This document shows positions 8,228-31,621 of a stretch of DNA of 64,000 nucleotides, one piece after another. Each line of letters starts with the position of its first letter. The first letter of the stretch is position 1. The translations under genes were made by a program, and so were the position numbers. Origin of the DNA: Sphagnum magellanicum (lineage: Eukaryota; Streptophyta; Sphagnopsida; Sphagnales; Sphagnaceae); NCBI GenBank assembly GCA_021904315.1, contig CM038914.1, positions 5,332,001 through 5,396,000 of the forward strand. Direction: 5' to 3'. The notes under the pieces are model-generated. The model saw nothing but the letters and a program-made list of their open reading frames with translations, did no database searches and was not told the origin of the DNA.

Positions 8228-8707
8228 TGCTGCCAAGCCTGTTTCCAGCGCGTGATTGGCGTTGCATCTATTCCTTTCCCACATCGCCTCGCGACAATGC
8301 TCACGTCCACATTGGGAACCGCAAGGATTGAACGCCAAAGCCGTGCACTGGCAGTAAATATGACGAGGGCCAAACCCTAAAACAAACACCGTCAGCGCCA
8401 ATGGATGAAAACTCAAACTAGCCTACTTGTGGATGAAAATAAATGAAATATTACAATTAAATGTTAAAGTTAGCCTAGGAGATGCCCCAAAGATAGAAGT
8501 AAATTGACCGATATGCCCAATTTTGGATGAAGTCAGTTTCAATGGTGTGAAAATGTATAGGGGAAGGCACTGAAAATACATTATGTAGTATACACGTCTG
8601 CTGAGGATGGGGCAAGTTGAACACCCAGCCCCCCAATTGAACTTAGGCACCCGCCCCTCTCCCCCCAATTGAACTGAACACGGCTGCTCCTCCTTTTGTG
8701 CTTAGCA

Positions 8708-9112: not shown

Positions 9113-11459
9113 TTGTTTACAAAACCCTAAACCCTTACAACCACCGCATGAGATTTGAACCCAACACAACAGGACTTTTAGTTACTACGATCTAGTTACT
9201 ACGATCAGCCTATTTCTTATTGCTTCAAACAATGGCAACAAATATAATAATTATTTTTTAATTTACTAGATTTTTACCCTGTGACAGATACAAGGTGTGG
9301 CAAGCCCAGTTTTTTAAGACCCTTACAAAGTTTGATTCAGGTGTTAAACATATAACAGGTGTATTCACCTTTTTTTGGTGCTTTGGCTTTTATATTATTG
9401 GCAGGGTTTTATCATTTAACATTCCACATGAAAATGGGCTTTTAGCTCATGTAAATTTGTGTTGGATATCATGAATGTCAAAAGTCTACCTTGAAAAGAA
9501 AATTGAATACTTCTAGTTGATCAATCATCATGATACATTGATTCATATTCATTGGTCAATCACAATGATTGATTAACATGTTAGACAATATGCAAGGGTT
9601 TTGGGTTTTGCTATTACTCATATTGTTAGATAATTCATTTGCAAAATCCTACTTGTCAATTTGACCCAAAAAGAATAAAATTGGATCTTATCTTTCAAAC
9701 AACTTATAATTTCATTTCGATCTTTGGATACATGTTGAAATAGTTGGGAATTTTAGTTCCAATATGGTCTTGTTGACTTTGTCTAATCTTGACTTGCACA
9801 TATCTAGTATGTCATGCATGTCAAAAGTGTTGGTTCCACCTCAAGAGTGATGGCTCAATAGTATAGGCCTTTTGGGGACCCTGGGATTACAAAAGGTCTT
9901 AGTTCAAATAGTGTTGGTTGGTTCTTGATTTTAGAAAGAACCTTTGGTCCCAATTCTACCTTTTTTTTCAGTTTTAATGGTTTTTTTAATCAAGTCTTCA
10001 AACCAAATTCTTTAATTTTAAAAGTTTTCAATTTCATTCATTTTCGGAAAGAATTTAAAATTGGTTCATTTTAAAATAATGTTTAATTCCATCTCCATTA
10101 CACACAACTAAACAAAAAATAAATTGTGTAATATAGGTTTCTTCAATTAACACATATGTGTAGTTCAAAATAGAGATTATGTAATATTAATATGTACAAC
10201 CAATTAAATACAATAACTTCTTTAAAATGTAAGCCCAAGCTTGTACTTTTTTTATATAAAATTATATTTATGTCCATGAAGAACTTGAACCTCTTTAAAA
10301 TGAAGCAACACCTTTAGTTTAGGTTTTAATTTAATTTTGAAAATAAATTGATTTTTCAATTAGGTTTCAATGACAGTTCCAAAAAACTTGGAACCTTCAA
10401 TCCAAAAACCTTAAAACTTGACCTCATTTAGACATTAACCTACTAAAATCCAAGAATCTACCAATTTTAGTGTTAGACAAATATGGTATTTCAGACCTTT
10501 CCAAAGAATATGAATAGTGGATTTTTTTTAAAAATTGACAAAAGATAAGCATCTAGATATTTCTGAAAAAAATGTCTAAAGATGTGCAAAATCAAAATCA
10601 AAATCCAAAATTGAAAATGAAATAACTTGTGGGAAAATTGAACCTTAATTCTATAAAAGAATTTGCCCATTGTAGCATAAGTTGCCTACAAAAACAAACA
10701 CTCACAAAAACAACCCAACCCCCACACCACACACCCATCTTACACCCCAACCTTGCACATTTCAAAGCTTGATATAGTTTAAATAGTAACAAAATCACAC
10801 CTAGATCCCCAAGAACCTTGTAGTATCAACATGGACAAAACTTAAGAATTAAAACATTTTTCAAAATAGAGTTAATTGAAGAGGGAAAAAATGTAAAATT
10901 GGTGAAGGTGAATTACTTTATCATTGTCAACTTTCATTTCTTCAAAATATTTAGATTCCTCAATCAACTCATAATTTTCTTTGGCTAAAACAACTTCAAC
11001 TTTAATATAATGTTTGAAGTTTACATTTACTATACAATTCAAATGTAGATTATTTGGCCAGTTCTTTACAATAATGATAATCCAATCAAGATTTTCAACC
11101 TATAAGCTATTACATCTCAAAGTTGTCAACAAACCAACCAAGCTATAAACTCAATTTGTTTCAATTTGAAACCTTGGAATTCCAAGAATTTATTTGGCAA
11201 GGAAACAAATGTTTGAAAACTAATTGTCATGGATTTGCCACCAAACAACACAATCTACACACTTGGATAAAAGGACATAATATATTTCCAAAATATGGAC
11301 AATTTTCTAATAAGAAATGCAAGCAAAGATTTTTCCATGGACATTCCAACACCAAAGATGTTGGTATCATCTTCTTCAATTTTAAAAATAAGTCCACCAA
11401 GTCCATCACCTAAAATTGTGAACATTGTTTGGACAATATGATTTAATCATAAAACTTCC
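9113..11459. other. AT-rich intergenic region, no gene seen
   Basis: Both strands are low in complexity and no conserved protein is visible. Part of this region may be the far end of the hAT element split by the CACTA insertion, but I could follow hAT-like residues only in the last few tens of bases before 11532. Confidence 0.4.
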
Positions 11460-11532
11460 ACACATGCCAAATTTAAATTCATACAACCTTGTCATCATTA
11501 ATTGCATACTTACATGCTTTAAACATCACATG
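11460..11532 (-). pseudogene. hAT transposase relic A, left piece
   Basis: Read on the minus strand, the sequence just left of the CACTA element continues the hAT coding frame that stops at the right border of that element (25029). The conserved block GTCFGH is restored across the junction if one ATG copy is counted, followed by about ten more matching residues (FKACKYAINDDKV). Stops follow within about 15 residues, so this piece is non-functional. The assignment rests on this frame continuity and on the same motif in hAT relic B. Confidence 0.6.
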
Positions 11533-12060
11533 CACTACTACATATTGTGCCTTTTTGCGAAGGGAAAAACAAAAAACCGGAAGGGTTTGCGAAGCAAAAA
11601 CAACCTGCCATATTTGCGATGTGACACGCATCACAACTTGTGGTTCACCAACAATCGCTAATATATAATGTACCTTAAATCATCACAGCACTTTTGCGAC
11701 ATATACCACAACCAAAACTTTGTGACCCTCTCAGTCTCCGTGCACCCTAGCAATATTACACAGTTCGCACCTCTTAATCATACTCACAACATCGCAAATA
11801 TTAAAATACACACAGTATCGCAAAACATTTTGAGACTCACAAGAAATTGCAATCTTGCGTTATTTGGAGCATCACATTTTGCGTTTGAATATGTATCGCA
11901 AACCTCATCACAAATTTTTACAAAAGTTTCCGATGTTGGACGTATCGCAAGTTACGATGTGCGTTAGTTCGCAAATTAGTAAAAAGGATCCTGGAGAAGG
12001 AAGTTTCGCAAAAGGTTTCGCAATGTCATCTGATTTATCACGGCCTTTTTTAAGTCGCAT
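11533..12060. repeat. CACTA left terminal and subterminal repeat array
   Basis: After the CACTA terminus, TTGCGA or its complement TCGCAA occurs at about 11555, 11587, 11614, 11694, 11792, 11818, 11896, 11945, 11969, 12006 and 12018. That is eleven copies in less than 500 bases, against well under one expected by chance. The first four copies are TTGCGA and the rest are TCGCAA. In En/Spm such short subterminal repeats bind the TNPA protein, so a similar role is likely here. Confidence 0.8.
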
Positions 12061-12247
12061 AAAATCTCGGTGACATTGAGGAGTACATGCAGTAGTGCAA
12101 AGGAGAGTAGTACAAAGTTCCTAAAGGGCCTACTCCTGGAACTATAAATGCTGAAATTCGCTAAAGACTTTGACACAATGAACATTGTGGAGTAATATAG
12201 AACCACAAGCCTCAATGGCAATTTGCATAAAAATAATGAGTAGAACA

Positions 12248-13694
12248 TTATACGTGGTCATCATCCACCTCAGAGGTTGTGAGCACAACCTCTGGTTTCT
12301 CACCTAGAATAGAACGAGACCGTGGCACATATGTGACAACAAGTGACCACTCCTTTGGGTTTGGGGGATAAGGAAGATAAAAACATTGTTCTACATGACT
12401 GGGAAAAATAAATGGCTCTGAAGTTTGCCAATGAGATGGCTAATAACTGGTGGCAGATGTCTTTAACCGTGTGTGTCCGCACTCATCCTAAACTAAAGTG
12501 CAATTTGCACCAGCAAGGTTCACTTTAAACCACTTGCACTTAAACACATACTCTTCAAACTTTGAATGTGCATCATAAGACACCACCAAGATCTCTTCCA
12601 GCTTTCCATAATGTGGCACAATATCTCGAACAATATTCTTATCATGTCGACTGCTTCTAGAGTCCTGAATGAATTGCCCTTGAACTTCACAGTCAAAGGT
12701 GCGGCCCCTCTTTTCATCCAAAATGGAAATCCTGAAATTAATATTGTGTTAGGCATTGCGAGTCAACAACTTATATGATAATAGAAACTTCATGCCCATA
12801 AAAATCATCCTAGAACTTTCTAAAAAACTTGTCTGGAATGTGAAGATGAGTTAATATGCCTAATGAAATATAAAAAATAAATACCTGAAATGTCTTCCTT
12901 GTGTCCACATTGCTAAACGTGTTGTCACAACTTTCTGTGGTCCATGAACAATGGTGCGAACATCATCTGTGATCTCTGGAAAACATGATATATTTTCTCC
13001 TTGTGCCAACAATTGATCCACTTCAGCCAACTTCTCTTTCATGTACTTATGCAACATAGGAAAAATCCTTGATCTCCCACTCATACTTTTGGCATCCTCA
13101 TATAAGTTCCTCCACTCTTCCATGACATTGCTATTATTCAACATGAATGTGGTCAGCTGAATTAACTCCGTAGGTAATAACATACGTGTTTGGATGGCAT
13201 CAGTCAAACGATCTTCCTCCTCTTCTCTTTCCTCCATCCAGACATGAGGACATGATGGATCTATAGTGGCCAAGATGTTGGTGCAATAAAACATGCTCTC
13301 TACTGCCAAGTGTCCTGTTGCCACGCTTCCCTCCACTCGTGCATGGTTATGGACATAACCTTTTAATACTGCCATATATCTTTCAAGCCAATACATCCAT
13401 CGACAATGCACAGGACCAGCAATGGCTATCTCATCCACAAGGTGAACTAGTAAATGCACTTGACAATCAAAAAATGGAGGGAAGGCCTTTTCCAACTTGC
13501 ATACCACCTCTGCTACTATTACCCTCATTCTTGGAATCTCCTCTGCAAATAACTCCTTTGAGCATACCCATTTCAACAGATATCCCAATGACCAAAGAGC
13601 ATTTTGTACTTTTGCACTAGCTAAGCCTATTATTGCCACAGGCAATATGTGTTGCAGTAAACGATGATAGTCATGTGTTTTCAGATACCTTGGC
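12248..13694 (-). pseudogene. TNP2-type CACTA transposase, C-terminal half, broken
   Basis: The 3' part of a CACTA transposase-like gene. One exon (12885-13694) encodes a DUF4218 domain: LKTHDYHRLLQ near its start, then LPVAIIG, FPPFFDCQVHLLVHLVDE and CRWMYWLERYM. An intron with GT/AG borders (12732-12884) keeps the frame after GRHFR. The next exon (12248-12731) encodes a DUF4216 domain (HYGKLEEIL, VFKCKWF) and a tail with FPSHVEQCFYLPYP and a natural stop at 12248. Two in-frame TAG codons, at 12488-12490 and 12440-12442, break the last exon. The 5' side is cut at 13695 by the solo LTR. The frame can be followed a short way past it (14713 upward) before a stop or splice site. The N-terminal catalytic Transposase_21 region was not found, so the gene is dead or internally deleted. 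Confidence 0.82.
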
Positions 13695-14712
13695 TGACGC
13701 ACTCCCAACTCCTTAAAGGGCTCAAATGTGAGCCCAAGTAGAAAGCAACGGATAAGGAGGAGTCGGAGCACGCTCCCTAGCTCATAACCCTTTGAGGGGT
13801 AGAGGGGCGGGTTGGAGCTCCGGGATGGGACTAGGAAGAGTTGACAAGCTTTAGTCACTCACACGGGCCTGCACACAACCCACACAAAGTGGTTAGTGCA
13901 AAGTTAGAGCACCTTTGGTGCTAGGACGAGCCACGGGCAACACGGACACACAAGACTCACCACGGCCCGGACTTGGGGGAAGCCACCACCTTCCCCCTTA
14001 TAGTATACTCTGTGACTCTCCACGGAGCCCACATCCAAATGGCTATTTTTCCCGAGACTCCCGCGCGGGAGTCCCGGAATCGCGCCAAATGGGACTCCCG
14101 GGACTTTGAAGCCCCATAACTTTGCGAGCAGATCTCCGATCGCGATGCGATCTAAAGCAAAGTTGTATCTCTCATCGAGAGCTTTCCAACGCCGTGTCGC
14201 ACTCCCGAATCGGACATCGGGAAGAGGTCGATTCCCGACTTTTAGTGGTCGGGAGTCAAATTGGCAGTTCGACTCCCGGCCCTTCTTTTGGCCATAACTT
14301 GTGTTACATATGTCTGAATGAGCAAGGCGAGCCCATTTTAAACATCTACGCTTCAAGAGCTTTCCATTGATATAAAGAACGCCACAATCCATTGAGGTTT
14401 GACCCCTGCAATCGCTCTCTGAAGTTTCGAAAGTCCACCGAGACTCCATCTCCCCAAGTGGGAGTTGCCTTGGGAGTGTGAGTGTTCACTCCCTCACACT
14501 CCCTAGCACTTTCTTGCACTCCCGGGAGTATGTGATGTGACTCCCAGGCTTCCTCTTGGTTTAACTCCCGGGCTTCCTCTTGCCTTAGCTCCCGGGCTTC
14601 CTTTTGGCTTAACTCCCGGGCTTCCCTTTGGCTTAACTCCCGGGCTTCCCTTTGGCCCGCACCCTTGCAATTCCCTTTGCCATGGTCGCGAGCCCAAGCT
14701 AGGGTTGCGACA
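13695..14712 (-). mobile_element. Solo LTR of a chromovirus-related element, TTGGC duplication
   Basis: This 1018-bp segment starts TGACGCACTCCCAAC and ends GGGTTGCGACA, like the 836-bp LTRs at 15652 and 21805. It shares long blocks with them (GCCACGGGC, CAAGACTCACCACGGCCCGGA, GAAGAGGTCGATTCCCGAC) but differs at many positions and is longer. It is flanked by TTGGC at 13690-13694 and 14713-14717, and no internal retrotransposon sequence is present. This is the usual outcome of recombination between two LTRs. It interrupts the TNP2-type gene. In transcript sense it reads on the minus strand (TGTCGC...). Confidence 0.88.
14541..14656. repeat. 24-bp minisatellite inside the solo LTR
   Basis: Nearly five tandem copies of a 24-base unit, CTCCCGGGCTTCC followed by TTTGGCTTAA, with a few substitutions. 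The full-length element's LTRs lack this array, and it accounts for part of the 182-bp length difference. Read on the minus strand it gives an arginine/glutamate-rich octapeptide repeat, which I take as chance. Confidence 0.85.
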
Positions 14713-15467
14713 TTGGCCACTTGTGGTCATTGTCCACGAGGAGAATGAAACACCTCTACCTGCGTATGAGCTGATGTGCCCTCATTTGAGGAGGATGAGT
14801 CACTAGTGGACACAACGGAAGAGGAAGACATATCATCTGTCACATTAATATAGCACAAGTGTAAGGCAAAGACCAAATTAGACTTTCAAAAATCATGTCA
14901 TATAGCAATATAAACCCTTGACTACTCATAAATTGAGACAACCTAAACAAAAAAAAAATGCATACTTGCATCTAATGTGGGCTCAACAATGCCTATAGGA
15001 CTGGTTGCTCAAATAATCCCAACACCAATTTCGAAGTAGGGGGCAATAATGTAAAAACCCTTTGGCATATGCAAAAAAAAACAACAAAATGTTAAAGCCA
15101 GAATAAATTAAAACTTTGCGAACTCCTTGCGAACCCCCCACCATCGCATCCCTCTTCACACCCAAGCCCTAAACCCTAAAACTTCCTCTTACATTAGCGA
15201 AGTCCCCGACTTTGCAACCCTCCAACGTTGCGAAAGTAACAGCATTGCATGGCCTTTGCGATAAAACCCGTATCGCAAGTTCCGATGCAGGTTACATTGT
15301 AAGACCTGAATTGCTGAAAGTCCCGAAGGTGTAGTGAAACGGAATCCCTTGAAGCTGGTGTAGTGAAATCTTTCTAGGGTCCTACAGTGAAACGACGTCG
15401 AAATTTGAATTCATTTTCGGCATTGCTCGAGAATTGTCGAAGGAAAGCTTGGGCAAAGTGGATTGCA
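14713..15467. other. CACTA central region between two divergent genes
   Basis: This lies between the minus-strand TNP2 relic and the plus-strand second gene, so it probably held both promoters unless an internal deletion brought them together. TTGCGA/TCGCAA motifs recur near 15117, 15127, 15229, 15256 and 15273, as in the terminal arrays. A CCCTAAACCCTAAA telo-box-like sequence lies near 15166. I recognise no transposase catalytic domain here. Confidence 0.5.
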
Positions 15468-15651
15468 ATGGCTAGGACTGGTGGAGGGGGTTCTAGGTCT
15501 GGAGGAGGTGACAACAATGAGGAAAGGTTAAGGAAGATGATTGCTAATCACTTGAGAGCTTCAGAGCTCTTTGCAATCGATACTAGGACACCTGAAAGGT
15601 TGACATCCTTGACAGCCATTTTAGGTCAAGCACTGCAAGCAAGGCTGACTG

Positions 15652-16487
15652 TGACGCGCTCCCAAGTCACGGGGTGAAACACACTCGAGGGTTTCACAAA
15701 GCCAAGTTGCGGAAAGTTGAACTTGGTAGCACGCTCCCGGCTTCCAACTCTAGAAAGGGGTAGAGGGTCGAGTTGGGAGCCCCGGGATTAGACTAGGAAG
15801 AGGGACTAGCTTAGCTTGTGTGATTCTGCATCCAAAAAAAAAACCAACCCCACGAGGTTAGTTTAGCATTCGGGACACCCTTTGGTGTTGGGACCTGCCA
15901 CGGGCACTTGGACACACAAGACTCACCACGGCCCGGACTCGGGGGAAGCCACCACCTTCCCCCATATAGTATTCTCTGCAGCTCGCCACCGAGGCTACAT
16001 CCAAATGGCACAAATTCCCGGGACTCCCAAGTTGGAGTCCCGAAATTGTCCCGAAATCGTCTCGGTTGGAGTCCCGGGACTTTGGGAGGTCATATCTTCT
16101 CGCCCTGACCTCCGATCACGACGAGGTCTGAAGAAAAGTTGTAGCGCTCGTCGAGATCTTTCCAACGCCATGTCGCACGCTCAAATCGGACGTCGGGAAG
16201 AGGTCGATTCCCGACTTTTAGTGGTCGGGAGTCAAACTGCCAATTTGACTCCCGGCCCTTCTTTTGCCCATAACTTGGGCTCCAGATGTCCGAATTGCCA
16301 ATACGAGGGCATTTTCGATATCTAAGTTTCAAGACCTTTCCAATGACACCAAGAACACCCCAATGCGAGGTGTTTTGCCCCTTGCTGTCGAGCTCTGAAC
16401 ATTCGGGAGTCCCGGAAGACTCCCAACCTCCCACTTTTCCAAGTGTTGGGCTTCACCCCCACACTTGGCCAAAGTGGGGTTGCGACA
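15652..16487 (-). repeat. 3' LTR of the chromovirus
   Basis: Read on the minus strand it starts TGTCGCAACCCC and ends CGCGTCA, the canonical TG...CA form. It matches 21805-22640 in length and, with one exception, in sequence. Being upstream of the reverse-oriented TNP2 relic and inside the plus-strand gene, it could supply a promoter or terminator to either. Confidence 0.95.
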
Positions 16488-16499
16488 CTCTCCCCCACT
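16488..16499 (-). promoter_or_regulatory. Polypurine tract (plus-strand primer site)
   Basis: Directly next to the 3' LTR the minus strand reads AGTGGGGGAGAG. A purine-rich run touching the 3' LTR is the expected primer for second-strand synthesis in LTR retrotransposons. Confidence 0.8.
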
Positions 16500-17273
16500 A
16501 GAAGAAAGAGGTCAATGTCCTCATTGACACTTAGCATTTTCCTTCGCACAATTACAATTGCTTCATTTTTGGATCCTTGGCCATTTGCCGACTCTTTGCG
16601 GCTTGGACCTTGTCTCAAGCTAACTTAGGCGTCCCCAAGATTCTAACACTTTCTTGACAAGTCCAAGAGGGTCTTGTGGAAAACCCTCTTCCCATGCTTC
16701 GTCAAAAGACTAAACTAGCCTAATTGACGAAGCCCTCATTTGGGAGGACTTTTCCCCATTTCTTCCCCTCATGAGGACTTAAGTCAAGTCTACTCTTGAC
16801 CTAAGCTATTTGACATGACTCCTTTTCTTATCTCGCGCCTTGGTCACAACAACCAAGCCTTAACTAAAAGGTTTGCTTATCAAGGTACGAGAAGCAACAC
16901 TTGGGCTTGCCAAACCCAAGTCCCAAACTACACTTAAAGTATGTGAGCGGGGTCATGACTCCCCGCGTTGGCCACACTACCAACCAACCCTTCGGGATGC
17001 ACCTCAAGGCATGTGCATGTCCCCGCAAGCTCACCTTGCTTGCCTCTTCTCTCGGGGCCAAGTTTCCTCAACCCCAAGGAGGAGTCCGATTTTGATTTGG
17101 GCCTACGCGGAATAGTTCCATTCGTCCCATGCCACTTTACAACTCTACTTGCCTTACCCAAATTTCTCATGATACAATCTCTTGGAAGTTTTAATGCCTT
17201 TATTCCACTTGCAACTTGATGTGGTACATTTTATGTGAGATTCTCCCCCACTAAAAGAAAGGTGATGTCCTCA
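16500..17273. other. Non-coding 3' region of the chromovirus with a second polypurine tract
   Basis: No reading frame is supported between the pol stop and the 3' LTR. At 17243-17260 the sequence TCTCCCCCACTA followed by AAAGAAAG repeats the polypurine tract and its flank at 16489-16508 (TCTCCCCCACTA followed by GAAGAAAG), and the matching continues into GATGTCCTCAT. The region may derive from a duplication of, or capture next to, the tract. Confidence 0.6.
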
Positions 17274-20200
17274 TCACACTCTACGTCTTTTCTTCTTTGC
17301 CGGTCTAGTGTGGAACTCTTCTATGGCTTCTTGGGCATGTTCCATGTCGGATTCATTCACCCAAGAAGCTTCTATCGGATGGTATCCTTTCCACTTAACT
17401 AGGTATTCCCGCTCTCGACCTCTAAGTTGCCTTGATTTGAGCACGGCCTCCACCTCAAACTCTGGTTCATTATGAACCAAGTCCGGTGGGGGCCTTGAGG
17501 TGTGCTCTCGATTAGGCCTTGAGGCATCACGGGCGACCGGCTTCAAGAAGGAAACATGAAATGTGGGGTGAACTCTAAGGTTTTCCGGTAGTTCTAACTT
17601 ATAAGTGTCGGAAAGTTTCTTTTCCAACACTTTGAATGGACCCGCATATGGGCCCAAAAACTTATGACTTAAACCTTCTGGCAACCGGAAGTTCTTGATG
17701 TTCAACCACACCTCGTCTCCCACTTGGAATTTCACCTTTCGTCGGGACTTGTCCGCAAAATCCTTGTACCTTTTGTGCGCCTTCTCCAAGTTGGTTTTTG
17801 CCAACTCCCAAAGGCGCCGTCTCTCTTCATCAAGTTGTGTGACCATTGGCACTTCCTCACTTGCATCACTTGGAGTTTGTCCTTGTGATGCCCAAGTCAT
17901 GGGCACAATTGGTGACTTGCCCGTCACCATTTGAAATGGGGTGGACCCGGTTGCGGAATGTGCCGAGTTATTGTAACAAAACTCGGCTAACTCCAAATGG
18001 TCCACCCAATCTTGTTGATCCGCCGCCACATAATTCCTTAGGAATTGTTGGATCACCAAGTTGACCCTTTCGGTTTGGCCATCTGTTTGGGGGCGGAACG
18101 AAGTGCTCATTTTGAGTTCCGACCCCATTCGCTTCCACAAGGCCCGCCAAAACTTACTTGTAAACTTCGGGTCTCGATCCGACACTATGTCTTTGGGAAG
18201 ACCATGATGCTTGAAAATGTGGGAGAAGAACAACCTTCCCGTCTCTTGGGCCGTGGCTTCATCTTTTGTGGGGATGAAGTGTGTCATCTTGCTAAAGCGA
18301 TCCACCACAACCATGATGGCATCAAACCCTTTTGAAGGGGGCAAACTTACCATGAAGTCCATTGACACACTTTCCCACGGCCCTTGAGGAATTGGCAAAG
18401 GTTTCAACAAACCCGCTTGCTTCTTGTTGAGGGTGCGGTTTTGTTGACAAGTTAAACAAGTCTTCACATACTCCTCCGCATCAAGCTTCAAGTTGGGCCA
18501 ATAGTAGGACTTCTTTAGGAATGTTGTGGTGCGCTTTGCACCACCATGGCCCGCAAGCGGTCCATCATGACATTCCTTCAAAAGTGTGTCCCTAATTTTC
18601 CCTTCCGGCACATAAAGTCTATTTTGCTTGTACCACAGCAATCCATTTCTCAAATGGAAGTGGGACTTGGCTCCATTTTGGATGCTTTGCCTCGTCTCCT
18701 TGGCAAAAGCATCCTGGCGGTTTGCTAACCTTACTTCCTTTTGAAGTTCCGACTCTCCCACATACACCACTCTAAGTTGGTGTTTTCGGCTCAAGGCATC
18801 CGGGACTATGTTTTCCTTTCCCGGCTTGTGACGGATGTCCACATTGAACAAGGCCAATGTGTCTTGCCACCTTTGTTGTTTTGATGACAACTTGGGTTGA
18901 GTCGCGAAGTACTTCAAGGTCACATTGTCGGTCCACACCACCACATCTTTGGATCCTATGTAGTGGCCCCAAGTCTTGAGACAATGTATGACCGCCCACA
19001 TTTCCTTCTCGTGTGTTGGCCACCTTCTCTCCGTCTCACTCAACTTCTTGTTTTCAAAGGCCACCGGCCTTCCATCTTGCACTAAGACACCCCCAATTGC
19101 AAAGTCGGAGGCGTCGGAATGGATTTCAAAGTCCTTGTCAAAGTCGGGCAACTTCAACACCGACGCCTTCACCAAAATGCCCTTCAATGCTTCAAAGGCT
19201 TCGTCGCATGCTTCATCCCAATCATAGGTGACGGCGGACTTCTTCAAGAGGTTTGTCAAAGGGGCTCCCACTTTCGCAAAGTTCTTGATGAACTTGCGAT
19301 AGTAGGATGCCAATCCTAAAAAGGATCTCAAGGCGGGAACCGACTTGGGCGGCTCCCAATCCAAAATTGCCTTGACCTTGTGATCATCCATCACCAAGCC
19401 CTCTTGAGTTATCCTATGCCCCAAAAAGTCAACCTCCGTCACCCCAAATTCGCACTTCTCGAGCTTCGCATACAACTTGTTTTCTCGTAGCTTTTGGAAC
19501 ACCTTGCGAAGGTGCTCCGCATGCTCCTCCATGGAGCTACTATAAATCAAAATGTCGTCTATGTAGACGACCACAAAATCATCAAGCCATTCTCGGAAAA
19601 TGTCATTCATGAGAGTGCAAAATGTTGCAGGTGCATTGGTGAGCCCAAAGGGCATCACCAAGAACTCATATGACCCATACCTTGTGCGACAAGCGGTCTT
19701 TTCTTCGTCCCCTTCTTTGATCCTTATTTGGTAATACCCCGAACGTAGATCAATTCTACTAAAAACCTTGGCTCCCGAGAGACGATCAAATAGATCATCG
19801 ATGCGAGGTAAAGGATACCGATTTTTCACCGTTGCCTTGTTGAGTGCTCTATAATCAACACACATCCTCAAAGTCCCATCCTTCTTGTGAACAAAAAGGA
19901 CGGGTGCCCCATATGGTGACTTACTTGGTTTGATGTAACCTTTGGCGAGGAGTTCTTCGAGTTGAACCTTTAACTCTTTCAACTCTTCATGGCTCATTCG
20001 GTATGGGGCCTTGGCGGGAGGTTCCACTCCCGGCATCACTTCAATCGCATGATCAACACGTCTTCTCGGGGGCAAGTCTTCGGGCAACTCTTCGGGCATC
20101 ACATCCGGGAACTCTTCCAAAACTCGCCTTATGCACTTGGCGGAAGTCACCAACTTGGTGGCTTCCTCGGGCTCATACTCATCTAACACCCGCATGACAC

Positions 20201-21098
20201 ACATCATGCCAAAACCTCCCACGCATTCTCTTTCCCAAGCTTTTCCCACCATGAAGTGGATGGTTGGCCCACCCACACAAGGCAACTCATGCGCCTTTAC
20301 CTTGACAATCCCACTTTTAGATGGGATCCTCACTAATCTATTGTGCCCTTCTATGAGCACATTGTTTTGGGTGATGAACTCCATTCCCAAAACACAATCC
20401 ATTCCACCCAAGGTGGAAACTAACAAGTCCACCTTTCCTCTCCAATTCCCCAATTGGAGAGGCACTCCCTTTGCTTGTAAAGTAGTTGGATGGGGAACCC
20501 CATCCGCGAAGTGCACCTCAATGGGTGCCTTGAGCTCCTCCAAGTGGAGCTCCATCCTTTCGGCGCTTTCTCGAGTCATGAAGTTGTGAGAAGCCCCTGT
20601 GTCCAAAAGACATAAAATTTCCCGCTTAGAAATCTTCCCTTTTAAGAAGATAAGTCGGTTGCATTCCTTTTGGGCTAAAGTGGCATTGAGAGCAAGTACC
20701 TTGGAGCCCCCAACACCCGATTTGGACTTGGGGCAATCTTTGGAGTAGTGCCCCACTTCATTGCAATTGAAGCATGCCCCCTTGGGCTTTGCTCCAAAAT
20801 CTCCCTTGGGTTGGCTCCCTTTTGAAGGAGCCCCCTTCTTCACGAAACTTCCTTTGGGTTTGAACCCCGAGCCTTGAAATGTTTTGGGCTTGTCCTTGGT
20901 TGGGCTACCTTGCCCCCGGTTCCATTCCCCCTCATGCCTTGGTTTCTTGTGAAGGAACTTGTTGTCCTTCTTGAACCCGGCTTTGTCACTCCGCCCCACA
21001 TCCGAGAAGTTCTCCACTTTCGTGATGGCCTCGGACAATGAGGCGGGCCAACTCTCCTCAAGCTTTCGCTTGGCCCAAGTTGGAAGCCCCATCACAAA
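17274..21098 (-). CDS. Chromovirus Pol: zinc knuckle, protease, RT, RNase H, integrase, chromodomain
   Basis: An uninterrupted frame of about 1270 codons. Residues counted from the GTG at 21095: end of Gag with a CCHC zinc knuckle ([14 protein letters not shown], 108-121), aspartic protease (LLDTGAS, Asp165), reverse transcriptase (YIDD near 510-513), RNase H (HSDASD, near 660), integrase with an HHCC zinc module (about 835-885), the D,D-35-E triad (MDFMVS near 911, SDRDPKF near 971, Glu of TDGQTERVN near 1008), and a chromodomain near the C terminus ([16 protein letters not shown], within about 1208-1262) followed by KKKRRRV. No ATG is needed at the start because the frame continues from Gag across a single TAA. 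All catalytic motifs look intact. The product would make virus-like particles and insert cDNA, with the chromodomain biasing target choice to heterochromatin (family knowledge). Confidence 0.96.
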
Positions 21099-21761
21099 TT
21101 AGCACACACGGTCCATCTCGTGCATGTGTCGAACCTCCAACATGAGTTCGGAATAAGCCCTCACATATTGCCTCAAGTTCTCATTTGTGGCATTCACAAG
21201 GTCACGGAGTTTGCACCTAGAAATGTAGTCGGAGTTCCTCGGTATGAATTCGGCCTCAATGCGATCCTTGAAAAACTCCCACGTATAGCCATGGCTCTTG
21301 CCCTCGTCTTGCCTCACCGTCCGCCACCAAGTGGCGGCATAGCCCTTCAAGTAGGATTGGGCAAGCTCCACGGCGGAATGCCGGCCAACCTTGGCGGCAT
21401 GTATGTAATCCTCCATTTCGGCAAGCCAAGCATCCACAACTTTTCGGTCTCGGGCACCATCGAAGTTCCCGGGCTTGGCCGGTTGAAACCTTTCACCCTT
21501 GGAGGTTCCCGTTTTGAGGGCCACCACCAACTCACCAAAGTCGGGCCTATTCATCTTGAGGAGGACTTCAAGTTGCTCCGGGGTGAATAGGACCGAGCTC
21601 CGTTGTTCCTCCTCACTTTGAAGCCCAACCTCGGGCTCATCTTGGTCCTCCCGGGAGTTTAGTTCCTCCTCCCCAATGGACTCTGGCGGGGCTACTAGGT
21701 CATCGACGGGTTCCTCGGGCCTAGTCTCGGAAGCTTGCTTACGGTTCTTCTTGGGAGCCAT
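21099..21761 (-). CDS. Chromovirus Gag, ended by an in-frame TAA
   Basis: The frame starts at MAPKKNRKQ, 44 bases inside the 5' LTR border and just after the primer site. An in-frame ATG at 21818 lies within the LTR and is less likely. After an acidic N-terminal region comes a retrotransposon Gag core: FTPEQLEVLLKM, FQPAKPGNFDGA, YLKGYAATWW and LRQYVRAYSELM. The frame ends at TAA (21101-21099) after MDRVC. The next codons in the same frame are typical Gag sequence ([10 protein letters not shown]), so the stop lies in the middle of Gag, not at a Gag/Pol border. It is either a recent nonsense change that disables the copy or, less likely, a read-through codon. About 220 residues are encoded before the stop. 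Confidence 0.9.
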   Translation of the reverse strand: MAPKKNRKQASETRPEEPVDDLVAPPESIGEEELNSREDQDEPEVGLQSEEEQRSSVLFTPEQLEVLLKMNRPDFGELVVALKTGTSKGERFQPAKPGNFDGARDRKVVDAWLAEMEDYIHAAKVGRHSAVELAQSYLKGYAATWWRTVRQDEGKSHGYTWEFFKDRIEAEFIPRNSDYISRCKLRDLVNATNENLRQYVRAYSELMLEVRHMHEMDRVC

Positions 21762-21790
21762 TCCAACCCAAGAAGTGAGCTTCACCACTT

Positions 21791-21802
21791 GCTCTGATAC
21801 CA
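21791..21802 (-). promoter_or_regulatory. Primer binding site, initiator tRNA-Met type
   Basis: On the minus strand, two bases inside the 5' LTR, the sequence is TGGTATCAGAGC. This is the classical plant LTR-retrotransposon primer site complementary to the 3' end of initiator tRNA-Met. Confidence 0.92.
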
Positions 21803-21804
21803 CG

Positions 21805-22640
21805 TGACGCGCTCCCAAGTCACGGGGTGAAACACACTCGAGGGTTTCACAAAGCCAAGTTGCGGAAAGTTGAACTTGGTAGCACGCTCCCGGCTTCCAA
21901 CTCTAGAAAGGGGTAGAGGGTCGAGTTGGGAGCCCCGGGATTAGACTAGGAAGAGGGACTAGCTTAGCTTGTGTGATTCTGCATCCAAAAAAAAAACCAA
22001 CCCCACGAGGTTAGTTTAGCATTCGGGACACCCTTTGGTGTTGGGACCTGCCACGGGCACTTGGACACACAAGACTCACCACGGCCCGGACTCGGGGGAA
22101 GCCACCACCTTCCCCCATATAGTATTCTCTGCAGCTCGCCACCGAGGCTACATCCAAATGGCACAAATTCCCGGGACTCCCAAGTTGGAGTCCCGAAATT
22201 GTCCCGAAATCGTCTCGGTTGGAGTCCCGGGACTTTGGGAGGTCATATCTTCTCGCCCTGACCTCCGATCGCGACGAGGTCTGAAGAAAAGTTGTAGCGC
22301 TCGTCGAGATCTTTCCAACGCCATGTCGCACGCTCAAATCGGACGTCGGGAAGAGGTCGATTCCCGACTTTTAGTGGTCGGGAGTCAAACTGCCAATTTG
22401 ACTCCCGGCCCTTCTTTTGCCCATAACTTGGGCTCCAGATGTCCGAATTGCCAATACGAGGGCATTTTCGATATCTAAGTTTCAAGACCTTTCCAATGAC
22501 ACCAAGAACACCCCAATGCGAGGTGTTTTGCCCCTTGCTGTCGAGCTCTGAACATTCGGGAGTCCCGGAAGACTCCCAACCTCCCACTTTTCCAAGTGTT
22601 GGGCTTCACCCCCACACTTGGCCAAAGTGGGGTTGCGACA
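21805..22640 (-). repeat. 5' LTR of the chromovirus
   Basis: It has the same 836 bp as the 3' LTR, with one mismatch seen by eye. It abuts the primer binding site, which fixes it as the 5' copy for the minus-strand element. It lies next to the resumed exon 1 of the broken CACTA gene. Confidence 0.95.
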
Positions 22641-23537
22641 GACTGTTAGGGAAGCACAAAGAGATGAGGAGGCAAGGAAGGTTGCAGAAGCCAAAGCAAC
22701 AGAAAAGAAGAGAAAGAGAGATGAGAGAGCAACAATAGGAGTTCTCTCACCTAGAACTCCCGAGAAGAAAAGGAAGAAGGATGAGAGGGATGCCATTAGA
22801 AAGGAGAAGTTCGACCTGAAGAAGAAGGAGGAGGAGAGGAAGAAGCTCCTTTTGATAACATTGGCAGAGGAGGGAATTCCAACTGAGCTGGCATACACTG
22901 GGGCGAAGAGCACCATTAGGCACATTGTCTCCACCAACTTTGCACGAGGAGTTGAGTAGGGCACTCTCTCAAAGGTAGAGCATAAAAGAGTGATAAATCA
23001 GGTCAAGGGAGCATTTCGAAATGGAGGAGAACTTGATTCTGGGTGGATTGCAAACAAGATCTCCAATTCAATGTCTCAAGCAAGATACCATGACAGGATG
23101 AAGATTCGTGCTCACCTGAAAGACCTAAATGTGTATAGGAACTTGGAGAGGCCGCTTCAGTTCTCAGAAGACATCTGGAATGCCTTTTACCTATCTGAGG
23201 TGCAGTTGAAAGCAACAAGGCAGCTGAAGGAGATCACAAAGCAGCTAGCCAAGGCCAAGAAGGCAAGAAAGTTTGGGAGGTCTGACCGTGACCTAAAGGC
23301 ACTGGAGCTAAAGCTCGCTGAATGCCAATCAGTGGTGGATGAGGTTGGTGATCCACCATTGAAGTTCCTCAAGGCAACAAAGCGAGTGAAAATGGTTCCA
23401 AACACCACCCACAAGCTAGGGCAAGGTGGCATTCCCGGCCTCAAAACAACATTTGTAAGTACCCTAAACCCTCTCCTCCATTTCTTTCCTGCAAAGACTC
23501 ACATGCTTCTGAATTTCTGTCCAGTCAAACTGGACTT

Positions 23538-23700
23538 TTTGCGATACCTTTGCGATGCGATACCTTTGTGATACCTTTGCAATGCGAATTGCATCGCAAA
23601 GACAGGTATATGGAGTTTTGGCCTTTTGGGTTGCGATAGTAGATGCAATGCGATTTGTTTCGCAAGCTGCTTCGCAAGTGTCAGTATGCGAAGGTCTGCA
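23538..23700. repeat. TTGCGA cluster inside an intron of the CACTA gene
   Basis: Several TTGCGA/TCGCAA copies lie within the first intron or at its end: TTTTTGCGATACCTTTGCGA near 23537, GCATCGCAAAG near 23591, GTTGCGATAG near 23631, and TTTCGCAAGCTGCTTCGCAA near 23658. It resembles the terminal arrays but sits more than 1.3 kb from the end. Confidence 0.65.
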
Positions 23701-24419
23701 CTTTGCAAAAGTGGTCAGAGACTTGAATAGATTCTTTATGCGTTTTTTTTACCTGTTGTATTATGGGGACAATACAAGAGGTACAAGAGGAAGATCACAA
23801 CTGCAGAAATGAATATGGGCCAGGAGCATGGCAAGGAGCATCTTTTTCAACATGTTGATGCACTATTGGTGAGTGGGTTTGGTTGGGATTCAATTTCTGT
23901 TTGTGTAGAAATTGTTTTCATTTGAATCAAGATTTTCATTTATGGTGTTGATTAAGCTTTGCATGTTGAAATGCAGGCATCTGAGGGTGAGAGTGAGAGC
24001 TTTGAGGGCAGCAGTGATGAGGAGGAGAGAGATGAGGAAGAGAGAGCAGGTAACACTGCTCCCAGTGTGCTACCACTAACAGTGGACCCGGTTCATTTGC
24101 TAATCGAAATGAAGGTTCTGCAGGGGGCAAAGATAAAAAGAATAGGGAGGAGGAGGAGGAGGAGGAGGAAGAGGGGCAGGGGGACGATGAAGAGAGGGAG
24201 GAGGATGAGCAGCCTCCCCCTCCACCAGAGAACACTAGGAAGAAAGATTCAAGGAAGAAATCCAAGAGGGGAAGGAGGTCTAGATAGACAGTTAGTGTGT
24301 TAGATACCCAAGGGTTGCAAACCCTTTTACATTATAAATTTTGAAATTTTGATATAAATTTTCTTTTTTGTGGCTTAAAGTGACCCAAATAAACCCTGTT
24401 TCCAAAATAAGAATACAGT

Positions 24420-25028
24420 GCCATGCTCTTGCGATACACAGTGCATCTCAAAACAATTTGCGAATCATGATTATTCGCAACACTACAAAAGCCAAAAGAG
24501 CAATAATACCATGTCACAGACATCGCTACACTCTTGGGGGTAAACTCATTCCAGAACACGTTTGCGAAATCTATGATTTCGCAACCTTTTAGCGGCATTC
24601 TGAGAATCCCAAAAAGTTTGCGTGAGATCTTAAAAGCCTATCGGTTTCCGATATAAGATCTAACGCAAACGTGTTGGGATTTTCAAAATGCCGCTAAGGG
24701 TTTGCGATAGACCTTATTTCAGAAACCGATAGACTTTTGAGTCGATTCGCTAGATCTTTGCGGCGATGGGTTTGTTGCAAATAGTGTCCGATGTAATGTT
24801 AATCGCAAACGGGATATAGAAGCAGTTATAATCGTAAAGGTTTTGTGATTTTATCAAGTTCGGGAGTTGTGAAGCATTTGCGATTGTACAGGTGCGAATG
24901 TTATGGTATCGTAAAGGCTTAATAGTTTGCGAGGAGTTATGGTTCGCAAATGCGGGTTTTCGGAAACTTCTTTCTTTGTTGTTTGCAATGATATGTGGAT
25001 CGCAAAATAGCCCCCTGTTGTTGTAGTG
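24420..25028. repeat. CACTA right subterminal repeat array and terminus
   Basis: TTGCGA/TCGCAA occurs at about 24429, 24459, 24475, 24562, 24579, 24701, 24803, 24879, 24927, 24944 and 25000, then the element ends ...TTGTTGTAGTG. As at the left end there are eleven exact copies, but here the two orientations alternate. Confidence 0.8.
24589..24697. repeat. Long hairpin in the CACTA right subterminal region
   Basis: The arm starting TTAGCGGCATTCTGA (24589) is the near-perfect complement of the arm ending AAAATGCCGCTAA (24697). Arms are about 44 bases and the loop about 20. Part of the loop (AAAAGCCTATCGGTTTC) is again inverted at 24722-24738 (GAAACCGATAGACTTTT), making a compound foldback. Arms carry TTTGCGT/ACGCAAA, one base off the TTGCGA motif. 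Confidence 0.85.
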
Positions 25029-25660
25029 ATGCCCAAAGCAAGTACCTTTGTAAGCCTAGAAAAACTTCACAAGTTCACATTCAATAATAAACTACAATAT
25101 TGCAGCCACAATTTTAAGGTTATTGCCCTCATCTTTCACAAAAGTAATCACATAGTGAATCAAGTCAATTTTTCCCAATAAAGATTGAAGTTGCAAAGCC
25201 ATGGCATTCCTAATAGTTCCATGCACTTTGAAAAACCCCACAATAGCACGCCTAGGTTTCCAAGTATCATCCAAACAATTAATGACCAATGCAAATGTGT
25301 CGACCCCACCTTTGGACATCCAAAGATCAAAACTAAAAAACACAATAGTTACAAATTCCAAATTCCAAATTTGGCAAGACATGCAAGTTCATGGTTTTTG
25401 TGACCATTGAAGAAAGAACCTAGTATTCCACAAGAGATGAATGAAATGGAAATACAACATTGAGATATTTGTGCAACACTAACCTATGTAACTAAATATT
25501 TTCACATGAAAATAGAGGTATGTAACCTTTGCAAATATAAAGCACAAGGTCCTTTAGAAACATTTGTTGTGCTTCATCACCATTTTTGTAAGGGATTGTT
25601 AAATCAAAATATTTAGTGATAGCAACCTTTGTTGGCCCGACCCTTTTCTTCCCATGTTAC
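25029..25660 (-). pseudogene. hAT transposase relic A, right piece
   Basis: The minus strand encodes the N-terminal to middle part of a plant hAT (BED-type) transposase. In order it shows VGPTKVAITKYFD, a GDEAQQMFLKDLV helix, GYIPLFSCENI, LHRLVLHK, FPFHSSLVE, SFDLWMSKGGVDTFALV, VGFFKVHGT and FVKDEGNN. At least two in-frame stops are visible in the first half. The frame runs into the CACTA border at 25029 and resumes in the piece ending at 11532. The same family is present at 49565-52560. Confidence 0.78.
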
Positions 25661-28098
25661 TAATTATGATTTGTTTCAGAAAGTTTAACCATAGGTTTTT
25701 CAATTAGTTATAACTTTATTTTTGTAACTAAACAAGAATGTGATGAATCAATATGTGTTTTCATAGGTGTAATACTATTTGTTTTGTTATATTAGATGAA
25801 CCCCTTCCTTAGAATAGAATTAGGTTGGTTTAGAATGTTACCAACTACCTACTCAAATCAACAAAGATACACTATAAGTTTTGTGGATTTTCAAAATCAA
25901 TTGGCAAGTTGTCATTGATTGTAAAGAAGCCCTAACAAATTGATGTCCTATTGTGTGGTTTCCATTCTCAAACTTTGAACTTCTATAATTTCAAGCTAAA
26001 CATCATCATTTTCTAATAGATTGTTTTTGCATTCTAGGAGTACAAATTCAACATCCAACAAACTATTAGTTGGATTTATGTTCAAACCACAAGTTGCTTC
26101 ATGGGCATCCAACCCACAATTTCAATAATAATCATTTCTCTTTTAAACATTGTAAAAGTGCCTTGAATAAAACAACCCTAAATGGAAGGAAGAAGACAAA
26201 CACATAAAATCACAATCCCAAGCTTCTACAAAATCCAAAATGCTCATAAAAAGAATTCTAGGAACAAAATGTAAAATCAAGAGGACGAAAAAAAGAAGGA
26301 AAACATAGTTATTGGATTTCTACAAATTTTGAAGTTGTTATGCATGAAATTTGGGAAAATAGTAGAATTTGTATCCAAAAAAACAAAAACATCAAAACTA
26401 AAGAAATGGAAAGGAAAAACCCATGCACATGTGTCGTTGAAACTTGAAACTTGAATGCAACAATAGAGCTTGATGCCTAAATTACAACAATGATTGTTGA
26501 GGCAATGTCAAGTTCAATGCAAACCTCCTATAACAAGTTCACACAATAACATGAAGCTCAATGCAAACCAAAGTTGTAGCTTGAAATGCAAGAATAAAAA
26601 GTAAAGCATGTTGAAGCAAAGTGAGATAAATTTGACAACACAAGATAATGAAATGACAATACAAAAGATCATAAGCTTCAAAAAACCACAAGCATTGCAT
26701 AGAGCCCCCACAATTAAGAAAGATTGAAAAAGCTTGCCAACAATGTAAAGCTTGACACATACAAAAAAAGCTTCACTTTCTTTATTCATCCCTAAACCCT
26801 ACTTTTGGCATATATTTCATATTCGATACCCTACCTATTGTAACAAACAGATACAATTAGCTATAGGTTAATGTCTTTGCTGATATGATTATGATAAGAT
26901 TATCCAAGTAGAAGACATCTACTGGTTGCAAATAAGGTCTGGTTAGAGGAAAAAAGAAGCAAAGTTTGAATATGACTTTGCTCATATTGGATGATTGTGC
27001 ATGTTCAAATCTATAAAAAACCACATATCCAACCGACACTAGTTCAAACCCAATGGTGTGAAGGTGAAACTTATCTCAACCCTCTGTCAATGTGTCTGAC
27101 TTGACGATCCCAGTCAAGTCAGGTCTGCTGTTGTGCCTCAAGATTAGCAAAACAGAAGGAAAGTGTTGGTTCAAGACTTAACAAAAAAGATAGCGATTCA
27201 ATAGGTTTAAAATGTTATGCTGCCAGCTTAATTGGGTCAGTGAACTAATGCTGGATCATGCTCAGAAGTGTTCACACAATGGTGACTGAGTTCAACGCAT
27301 ATTGGAACCATATGTCCCCAATCACTTGTAGTTGCTCATAAGAAACTACAAATGATCTAATAATCAAAGAAGGTGATATACAGAGGTCCAGGAATCTTTT
27401 TTGTGGTTGAAAAAGTGGCCACAAATGTCAAATAACAGCCAAATCTACTCAAATTTGCACAGTGCAAATATCTGTACAAAAAAGAGACACCACTAAGGTG
27501 CATGGCAATAATCAAGCTAGTGACATATATGATTATATAACTGAACAATTGTGCATTTTGTTTTTAAGAAATGGATTCAAACAAAATTACAAAAGTAAAC
27601 TAAAATACTTTTGTACAATATAGCAGCATGTGCAGCATTTAGTAGCATATATTGTCCACAACTATTAATGCAGCCTCCTCATGCCATACCTGGAGTTGTG
27701 ACTCTTTTCTCATATGATTACAGATTGTCTTTGTTGAAGTACACTTTAAAGCACTGTGATCCCTCACCAGTATGCATTTCAATTGTACTCAGGGCCAACA
27801 TACAAATATGTCAAGAAATACATTTTGCAACCTAATCCTTACAAACCCTAAATTGACCACCAGTAACTACGTACCTGGTTTGTAGAATGTGACGCATCAA
27901 TTGCACACCCACGTCACATATCAACCTTTGGTATCTTACTATTTCTTTTACACTGCCTTAAAAAACAATCATATTTTTCATATTGGTGACATTTTATGAA
28001 ACCCCTCATTCTCTGCTTTTGTACCTATTCATTCTTGTTGTCATTGCTGTTGATGGCAATTCCTCCAAATATGAAGTTGTTAGAGAAACTAATAGCCC
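25661..28098. other. Intergenic region 3' of the GH3 gene
   Basis: No conserved protein is visible on either strand. The last few hundred bases are expected to hold the GH3 3' untranslated region. I saw no MITE with paired ends here. Confidence 0.4.
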
Positions 28099-31000: not shown

Positions 31001-31621
31001 TGGTTTTCCATTAGGCTACCGTGAGCACAGCAGACTTTGTGTAATAGTAACTGTGATCACACCAGCCTGATGGATAGAGACCTTAACATCCTGACGGCTG
31101 TTTCCACAATTTGAACTTCAATAGTTGTACTTATCTTTGTACCTAAGAAAAAATGCGGAGATGGGCTCAGCATTGAAGATGGGAGTAGAGTCCCCATTAA
31201 CCAAGCGCAAGATATCGGGCTCCAGATCGGAATAGGTGACAACTGGCAAGCATTGCTTGAAGCTGGCAACGTCGGTACGCCCATTCAGTCCATGTCGCTG
31301 CAAGTACTCGACGTTGGCATTGCGAGTCAGAATCTCTTCCAGCTTCAACCGCTGAATTACCTCTAAGTTCTCCGCGACGGAATCAATAAACTCATCCGGA
31401 TCGAAACCTGAACCAGCACTGGTACTATCGTAGATAAATCCCAGCCGTCTCGAGGGCATCACAAAAGCCGCCGGCCGCTCATGGATAGAACCATCCGGAT
31501 GATCTAAAGCAGCCTGATCTTTGGATATTGTCGTGCCGCGAGTTATACAACTACTCTCCACAGAACTCTTTGCACGGTCTGCTCCGATACCATTATTCTC
31601 CAATACTACAGTCGATTCCAT
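28099..31621 (-). CDS. GH3 family acyl-acid amido synthetase
   Basis: GH3 enzymes adenylate a plant hormone acid (IAA, jasmonate or a benzoate) and join it to an amino acid, usually in the cytosol. Exons by GT/AG and phase: 31621-31143, 30424-30323, 30204-29378, 29122-28855 and 28405-28099. The sum is 1983 bases, 660 codons plus stop. Exon 5 could instead begin at 28434. Adenylation motif 1 (STGTTSEKAKF) is split by intron 1. Motif 2 is YGASECPIMGLN (near residue 389) and motif 3 is YRYCVGDVLRVKGF (near 472). The family C terminus has GALELRI and QYKTPRC (near 621). An in-frame ATG at 31459 would give 606 residues, closer to the usual 575-610, so the first 54 residues may be untranslated. No stops or frameshifts were seen, so the gene is probably functional. 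The substrate cannot be told by eye. Confidence 0.92.
30687..31082. mobile_element. MITE in intron 1 of the GH3 gene
   Basis: The left end is GGTCTCTTTCCATTAGGCTG and continues TTGTGATCAC. The right end read in reverse is GGTCTCTATCCATCAGGCTG and continues GTGTGATCAC. TTA touches or nearly touches both ends, so a PIF/Harbinger-type TTA duplication is possible. The block TTTCCATTA...GTGATCAC recurs inside (near 30727 and 31003), so the arms were partly duplicated. It takes up more than half of the 718-bp intron. Confidence 0.75.

Follow-up and report, generated by a model that had tools for sequence, protein, structure and literature searches.

Do the transposable elements lying one within another in a stretch of a Sphagnum magellanicum chromosome (contig CM038914.1 of assembly GCA_021904315.1; 64,000 nt, hereafter the window) record successive insertions, and how far can the order of these insertions be read? 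The best explanation, to which we assign a probability of about 93%, is a plain stack of transposition events: a CACTA element sits in a hAT-like transposon, and a solo LTR and a chromovirus provirus sit side by side in the CACTA element. The nest is real; it is clean but ordinary, and it is built from known superfamilies. The original prediction had all three target duplications intact, and direct reading of the junctions found them exact: ATG at 11530..11532 and 25029..25031 (CACTA into hAT), TTGGC at 13690..13694 and 14713..14717 (solo LTR), and GACTG at 15647..15651 and 22641..22645 (chromovirus). At fixed ends such duplications are expected by chance with frequencies of 1/64, 1/1024 and 1/1024, respectively, by simple arithmetic.

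Beyond these odds, the reality of the nest was settled by the empty sites found in paralogues. The check proposed with the prediction was that paralogues should match across the junctions, and they did at each of them. The CACTA site is empty in 7/7 fetched hAT-like loci (L002-L008), all of which run straight through; these are the best seven of 20 hAT-side matches among 31 other matches, the remaining 11 being to the CACTA end. The chromovirus site is empty in 29/29 other CACTA copies, and the solo LTR site in 2/2 longer CACTA copies (L039 and L040, which are L014 and L024 fetched at greater length and not extra copies), where TTGGC is present once. Every part of the nest is a multi-copy repeat, as would suit a mistaken joining of repeats in the assembly; misjoins, however, would not yield exact duplications at three sites together with precise empty sites, and on these grounds we rejected misassembly, giving it practically no chance.

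The outermost layer is the hAT-like transposon, with the 3′ side of its gene at 10481..11532 and the 5′ side at 25032..27007 (both on the minus strand, by homology to L041 and L042; L041 is the same locus as L003). The nest was predicted to span 11460..25660; the hAT homology is wider, ∼10481-27007. With the CACTA element removed, the hAT frame is continuous across the joined site, KGTCFGH|VMFKACKYAINDDKV, and an open frame of the paralogue L006 ends in CFGHVMFKVC. The predicted restoration of this frame at the GTCFGH motif is thus true only locally, as the hAT frame contains many further stops. The C-terminal region of the hAT gene (∼11005-11374, minus strand) was located by tblastn matches of the L042 C-terminal frame, with stops in the window copy. 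The window's second hAT fragment (51097-51546) was tried as a paralogue; only 24 aa align, at 54%, and genome copies were used instead.

The assignment to hAT is weak: it is suggested by a sub-threshold Pfam match of Dimer_Tnp_hAT to the paralogue L042 (E 0.082; 13.2 bits, cut-off 21.4). Eight other proteins yielded no usable Pfam match (L006:1061-1522, L005:1945-2316, L008:1577-1915, P0129, P0130, P0132, P0138 and P0166), and a search for hAT ends and an 8-bp duplication yielded nothing beyond brief inverted matches between the flanks, of a kind that resembles chance. A precomputed PF27041 assignment is present on P0129, P0130, P0140 and P0149. A search of Rfam produced no match at gathering thresholds.

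The CACTA element, including both of its inserts, occupies 11533..25028. Its ends read CACTACTACA at one side and the inverse of CACTACAACA at the other, with nine of the first 10 bases in agreement, and the left end is also found in L039 and L040. Inverted repeats starting with CACTA and a 3-bp target duplication, ATG on both sides, place the element in the CACTA (En/Spm) superfamily. The transposase gene is represented in the window by a remnant with the DUF4218 part only (12860..13690, minus strand; PF13960, E 5.1e-30), and no match to Transposase_21 was seen in the window pieces scanned with Pfam. The tnp2-type transposase domain is present in L039, a copy of the same family, with E-values of 1.8e-37 and 1.1e-7, in the very stretch that the window copy has lost. 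The window copy is a deletion derivative of its family, not a complete member; an autonomous copy was ruled out, the transposase core being missing.

The second CACTA gene lies on the plus strand, split by the chromovirus into a left part (15468..15651; no Pfam match) and a right part (22646..23571), the latter having relatives in several Sphagnum species. The original prediction had its frame restored on removal of the chromovirus; the frame is indeed open across the site from 15468, but one stop interrupts it at 22957-22959, where a sense codon stands in the 29 other copies.

The solo LTR (1018 bp; 13695..14712) is gypsy-type, ends in TGACGC...GCGACA and is assigned to the minus strand, an orientation taken from the chromovirus LTR. 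It is a single full-length LTR that lacks any internal region and is immediately flanked by its target duplication. Copies of its family were found at 90-97% identity; the family is related to the chromovirus LTR (∼80-83% in matched stretches). In this sister family of the chromovirus LTR, solo LTRs are common, a perfect 5-bp duplication being present in 6/11 other copies.

The chromovirus (Ty3/gypsy) provirus occupies 15652..22640 on the minus strand, as defined by its ORFs, domains and junctions. Both LTRs are 836 bp long (3′ LTR, 15652..16487; 5′ LTR, 21805..22640), begin and end with TG...CA and are flanked by the 5-bp duplication. A gag frame (21099..21818; Retrotrans_gag, E 2.3e-12, profile positions 2-84 of 97) lies upstream of the zinc knuckle and terminates in a stop codon at 21099-21101, the next ORF being in the same frame. 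This ORF (17274..21095) carries zinc knuckle, protease, RT, RNase H, integrase, SH3-like region and chromodomain, with Pfam matches in the order RVT_1, RT_RNaseH, Integrase_H2C2, rve and, at the C-terminal end, Chromo (17304-17459; E 7.2e-14). A putative polypurine tract, read on the minus strand, adjoins the 3′ LTR (16488..16500), and a putative primer-binding site is at 21791..21802; we take the latter to resemble the complement of the 3′ end of the initiator methionine tRNA. The LTR family has 38 other scored places at 98-99% identity, and eight same-strand LTR pairs are 6118-6155 bp apart (6153 bp in the window), which fits recent activity of the family.

Comparison with paralogues revealed two internal deletions, both invisible without them, so the prediction that the nest was readable to the base is not supported. 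In the hAT layer, L041 carries 641 bp more at 11439-11447, where the flanking matches in the window overlap by 9 bp (minus strand), and the extra piece has homologues in L042, L005 and L008. In the CACTA layer, base-level comparison with L039 and L040 identified a loss of 3261 bp, with CC common to both sides of the junction (14734..14736; break at 14735/14736). Neither deletion had been noticed originally, and the nest does not fix the time of either.

The CACTA deletion is private to the window among the copies compared: the sequence beside the break is kept in 39/39 other copies, and the junction is spanned by 0/39 other matches (the two sets of 39 only partly overlap). An old non-autonomous CACTA subfamily was rejected on these same counts. 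One copy, L050, has a match at the break that starts 10 bases to the left of where the matches of the other 38 begin; it still keeps the deleted stretch to within ∼30 bp.

A distance of 18 bp separates the break from the right-hand TTGGC of the solo LTR, and this closeness is the only mildly odd feature of the nest. Independent events do not explain this distance (by arithmetic made after the fact, the odds are ∼1 in 75 that one or other of two insertions would land this near within 5.5 kb). Since the solo LTR is 18 bp from the CACTA deletion, and the CACTA element likewise ∼85 bp from the hAT deletion, insertion and deletion might be coupled, each new insertion setting off an end-joining deletion close by and thereby disabling the element it had entered; we consider this unlikely. 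For the solo LTR and the 3.26-kb deletion, non-independence would mean a single break-and-repair episode, in the form of either a deletion from the flank of the new LTR element or an LTR insertion near a healed break. The same proximities speak for such an episode, but the target duplication and the 18 host bases are intact, so the insertion itself did not remove them, and the coupling was noticed after the fact at one locus; we regard a single episode, too, as improbable.

Returning to the plain stack of insertions, the predicted relations, hAT older than CACTA and CACTA older than both LTR insertions, are borne out by the empty sites and duplications. The further claim that every insertion is dated in order fails for one pair: the solo LTR and the chromovirus are siblings in the CACTA element, and nesting therefore gives no order between the two. 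Divergence does provide one. Changes per site, to be read as upper bounds for insertion ages where they are terminal branches, in layers that differ in composition, are 0.042 for CACTA (branch 0.042; 71/1697 sites differ), 0.015 for the solo LTR (branch 0.0146) and 0.0006 for the chromovirus, and the three intervals do not overlap. The LTR comparison recommended with the prediction gave one mismatch in 836 positions, making the chromovirus the youngest layer by divergence; the solo LTR is older than the chromovirus by divergence, not by nesting. On transversions alone (CACTA, 6/1697; solo LTR, 3/1018; chromovirus, 0/836) the layers separate poorly. The count of private sites in the CACTA copy is only 10/1697, since its C>T changes are mostly found in other copies as well, and branch length and difference counts were therefore used. 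Absolute ages would be a matter of inference; the order of divergence itself is a direct observation.

Two other readings of these values were weighed. The solo LTR could be younger than the chromovirus, with its extra differences inherited from the source element, as the length of a terminal branch sets no more than an upper limit and both elements lie directly in CACTA. Its tree, however, is star-like, the branches of all 12 copies being of similar length (0.0146-0.0304), and 12/15 changes in the window copy are C>T/G>A, as expected of decay in place; we consider this order unlikely. Alternatively, gene conversion could have homogenized the LTRs of the chromovirus and made it seem younger than it is, and PMC7251063 reports such conversion as frequent in plants; but the near-identity of the family's LTRs at its 38 other places fits recent activity, and the nest order requires only that the chromovirus be younger than CACTA. 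We hold this to be very unlikely.

The stack of transposition events was very probably built as follows. A hAT-like DNA transposon arrived first, decayed and, at some time, lost ∼0.64 kb; a CACTA element entered it, duplicating ATG. This copy lost 3.26 kb with the transposase core at a time that is not fixed, with a 2-bp CC overlap at the junction and probably by end joining or aborted gap repair. A gypsy-type LTR element entered at TTGGC, 18 bp from the deletion break, and presumably collapsed later to a solo LTR via LTR-LTR recombination. Last, a chromovirus from a recently active family entered the second CACTA gene at GACTG.

The original prediction called this a rare relative clock. The use of nested insertions as a chronology is standard in plant genomes: in PMC6911290 and PMC7251063, younger elements lie inside older ones, order is taken from interruption and ages from LTR divergence, and REANNOTATE (PMC2672092) and LTRtype (PMC5379124) belong to the same field. 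The window nest is ordinary in this respect; it adds a single moss locus whose layers can be cleanly ordered, and it changes no general view. Moss transposon nests seem little described in the literature searched, with no mention of Sphagnum among the matches listed. Decay in the CACTA element and the solo LTR is mostly C>T/G>A, in CACTA strongest at CHG sites, and the locus could therefore be used to illustrate how a methylation-driven clock works.

Compared with known systems, the hAT-like layer has homologous copies with a C-terminal region weakly resembling Dimer_Tnp_hAT; it differs from hAT transposons in that this match is sub-threshold, the ends and 8-bp duplication were not found on the flanks searched and the window copy is heavily decayed. 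The CACTA layer shares with En/Spm elements the CACTA...TAGTG ends, the 3-bp duplication, a tnp2-type gene (DUF4218 here, Transposase_21 in L039) and a second gene, and departs from them in having no transposase core. The provirus resembles chromoviruses with a group I chromodomain, such as the Tcn1 clade of mosses (PMC3350952), in its gag, protease, RT, RNase H, integrase and chromodomain, and YLVKWKG in its frame fits the chromo-box motif printed there; unlike in those elements, a stop codon parts the gag frame from the rest, and the likeness is one of domain content. With the published nests cited above, the window nest shares younger elements in older ones, order from interruption and ages from LTR divergence. 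Those papers treat mainly LTR elements in LTR elements, whereas in the window DNA transposons (hAT, CACTA) of a moss serve as hosts, and extra internal deletions complicate the reading.

The nest was confirmed: a CACTA element (11533-25028) lies inside a hAT-like transposon (homology ∼10481-27007) and carries two insertions of its own, a solo LTR (13695-14712, minus strand) and a chromovirus provirus (15652-22640, minus strand). Target duplications in these families are made by transposase or integrase, and the ends and duplications given in the original prediction proved exact when the junctions were read directly: ATG at 11530 and 25029 for CACTA in hAT, TTGGC at 13690 and 14713 for the solo LTR and GACTG at 15647 and 22641 for the chromovirus.

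We searched the genome (439 Mb, 31 contigs; the window is C8:5332001-5396000) for uninterrupted paralogues. The left CACTA/hAT junction had 31 other matches, 20 of them on the hAT side and stopping at the boundary, with 11 representing the CACTA end. Alignment of the joined hAT flanks with the seven best of the 20 hAT-side loci (L002-L008) showed the CACTA site to be uninterrupted in all seven. For CACTA itself, 40 of 128 candidate places were scored (the window and 39 others); the chromovirus site is uninterrupted in all 29 other copies fetched with flanks (L010-L038). The solo-LTR site is empty in L039 and L040, longer stretches of the copies L014 and L024, respectively; TTGGC stands there once, and the 18 window bases that come after it are present with 1-2 differences. 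Paralogues thus match across the junctions at all three sites, and the proposed nest stands.

By nesting, hAT is older than CACTA, and CACTA is older than each LTR insertion. Every insertion had been claimed to be dated in order; however, the solo LTR and the chromovirus are siblings within CACTA, and nesting gives no order between them. That order is supplied by divergence. In a star-like tree of 30 CACTA copies the window copy has the longest terminal branch (0.042; others 0.020-0.036), differing from the column majority at 71 of 1697 sites. The terminal branch of the solo LTR in a tree of 12 copies is 0.0146 (others 0.0164-0.0304), and the two chromovirus LTRs, 836 bp each, show one mismatch (A/G). 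The Poisson intervals per lineage are 0.033-0.053 for CACTA, 0.008-0.024 for the solo LTR and 0.00002-0.0033 for the chromovirus. The identity of hAT paralogues, 68-77% over the longest matches, fits hAT as the oldest layer.

At the Physcomitrella rate of 9.4e-9 per synonymous site per year, as quoted in PMC9247546, the ages become ∼4.5 (CACTA), ∼1.6 (solo LTR) and ∼0.06 (chromovirus) million years, the first two being upper bounds. The ages are probably overestimated, since C>T and G>A account for 62 of the 71 changes in CACTA; with transversions alone (six, three and zero, respectively) the layers are poorly separated. Gene conversion between LTRs, as raised in PMC7251063, adds caution to an LTR-based age. 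Changes in the window CACTA copy affect 20% of CHG, 11% of CG and 4% of CHH sites, and the decay looks as if driven by CHG methylation. Across 14740-15651 and 22646-23430, compared with L010-L038, C>T/G>A changes in CACTA copies are commonest at CHG. The pattern varies among the six copies shown; in L013, CG is slightly above CHG.

The nest had also been called readable to the base, which is too strong: comparison with paralogues revealed two losses beyond the sight of a sequence-only reader. Base 4310 of L039 corresponds to window base 13694, and the window picks up again at L039 base 7588; at base level, CACTA retains 18 bases past the right TTGGC, up to 14735, and then jumps. The deletion is 3261 bp, with CC common to both sides of the break. 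In L039 the lost stretch encodes Transposase_21 (E 1.8e-37; second piece 1.1e-7); DUF4218 is retained in the window. Homologous sequence is present beside the break in all 39 other copies checked (29 loci and 10 further fetched places). In a junction search (40 scored of 103 candidates, 39 besides the window, partly overlapping the CACTA copy set), none of the 39 other matches covers the full left side; in 38 the match starts at the break itself, and in one (L050) it starts 10 bases to the left. Within the reach of these searches, the deletion is private to the window copy. Its 2-bp overlap would fit end joining or aborted gap repair. It lies 18 bp from the solo LTR, a closeness expected at ∼1 in 75 by chance in a simple post hoc calculation (36 of 5479 bp for each of two insertions). 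The second loss is of 641 bp of hAT at 11439-11447, relative to L041 (at the L003 locus); the piece has homologues in L005, L008 and, at the L002 locus, L042. L004, L006 and L007, which showed no match there, are uninformative.

The hAT frame has many stops, and the CACTA tnp2 gene has lost its core. Among the 120 of 208 tnp2-remnant matches listed, Sphagnum supplies the nearest named relatives by identity (86-90% over 11-43% of the query); those from Calypogeia fissa, a liverwort, are longer but more distant (62-74% over 73-83%). Many listed matches span just 8-23% of the query; many of these are probably LTR-derived ORFs from metagenomes, because the first 55 residues, 16% of the query, are coded by the LTR (13695-13858). 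The second CACTA gene is open across the chromovirus site except for a stop at 22957-22959, a position at which the codon is a sense one in all 29 other copies; named relatives among the 120 of 290 matches listed are from S. jensenii, S. troendelagicum, S. balticum, S. tenellum and S. fallax. On the matches of both genes, we take the host to be a peat moss. The right subterminal region of CACTA (24560-24741) holds imperfect palindromes, with 73-bp arms at 77% and 42-bp arms at 86%. In the chromovirus, a stop at 21099 closes the gag frame ahead of the zinc knuckle; Retrotrans_gag, matched over profile positions 2-84 of 97, ends just before this stop. The frame 17274-21095 is open through zinc knuckle, protease, RT, RNase H, integrase, SH3-like domain and chromodomain.

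Solo LTRs arise by LTR-LTR recombination. For the solo-LTR family, a first look turned up 6406 candidates, of which 40 were scored. The family seems rich in solo LTRs, since six of the 11 other copies fetched (L058-L068) carry a perfect 5-bp duplication. One more agrees at four of five bases, and in four of the 11 the duplication is absent (at most two of five bases agree); in two of these four, L058 and L065, the adjoining bases resemble a polypurine tract read backwards. Within the window solo LTR, a 24-bp tandem repeat of ∼5 copies occupies 14540-14656. The chromovirus LTR gave 5217 candidates, with 38 other scored places at 98-99% identity. Eight same-strand pairs are spaced 6118-6155 bp apart (6153 in the window), the spacing expected between the LTRs of a single element; a ninth pair (C5, 6479 bp apart) lies on opposite strands and is ruled out as one element.

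Elsewhere in the window, hAT-like fragments with a KGTCFGH motif and a C-terminal-like stretch lie at 51097-51546 and 49758-49853. Exons of a GH3-family gene with N-terminal, central and C-terminal GH3 domains (28743-31621, minus strand) lie close to hAT, and an open frame at 6860-8416 (minus strand) has PDCD2_C and a sub-threshold MYND-finger match.

The anatomy and nested order originally read from the window are thus borne out, whereas the claims for its dating, legibility and rarity went too far. On the last point, nesting of elements is common in plants; PMC6911290 reports 1491 nested pairs in 12 genomes.
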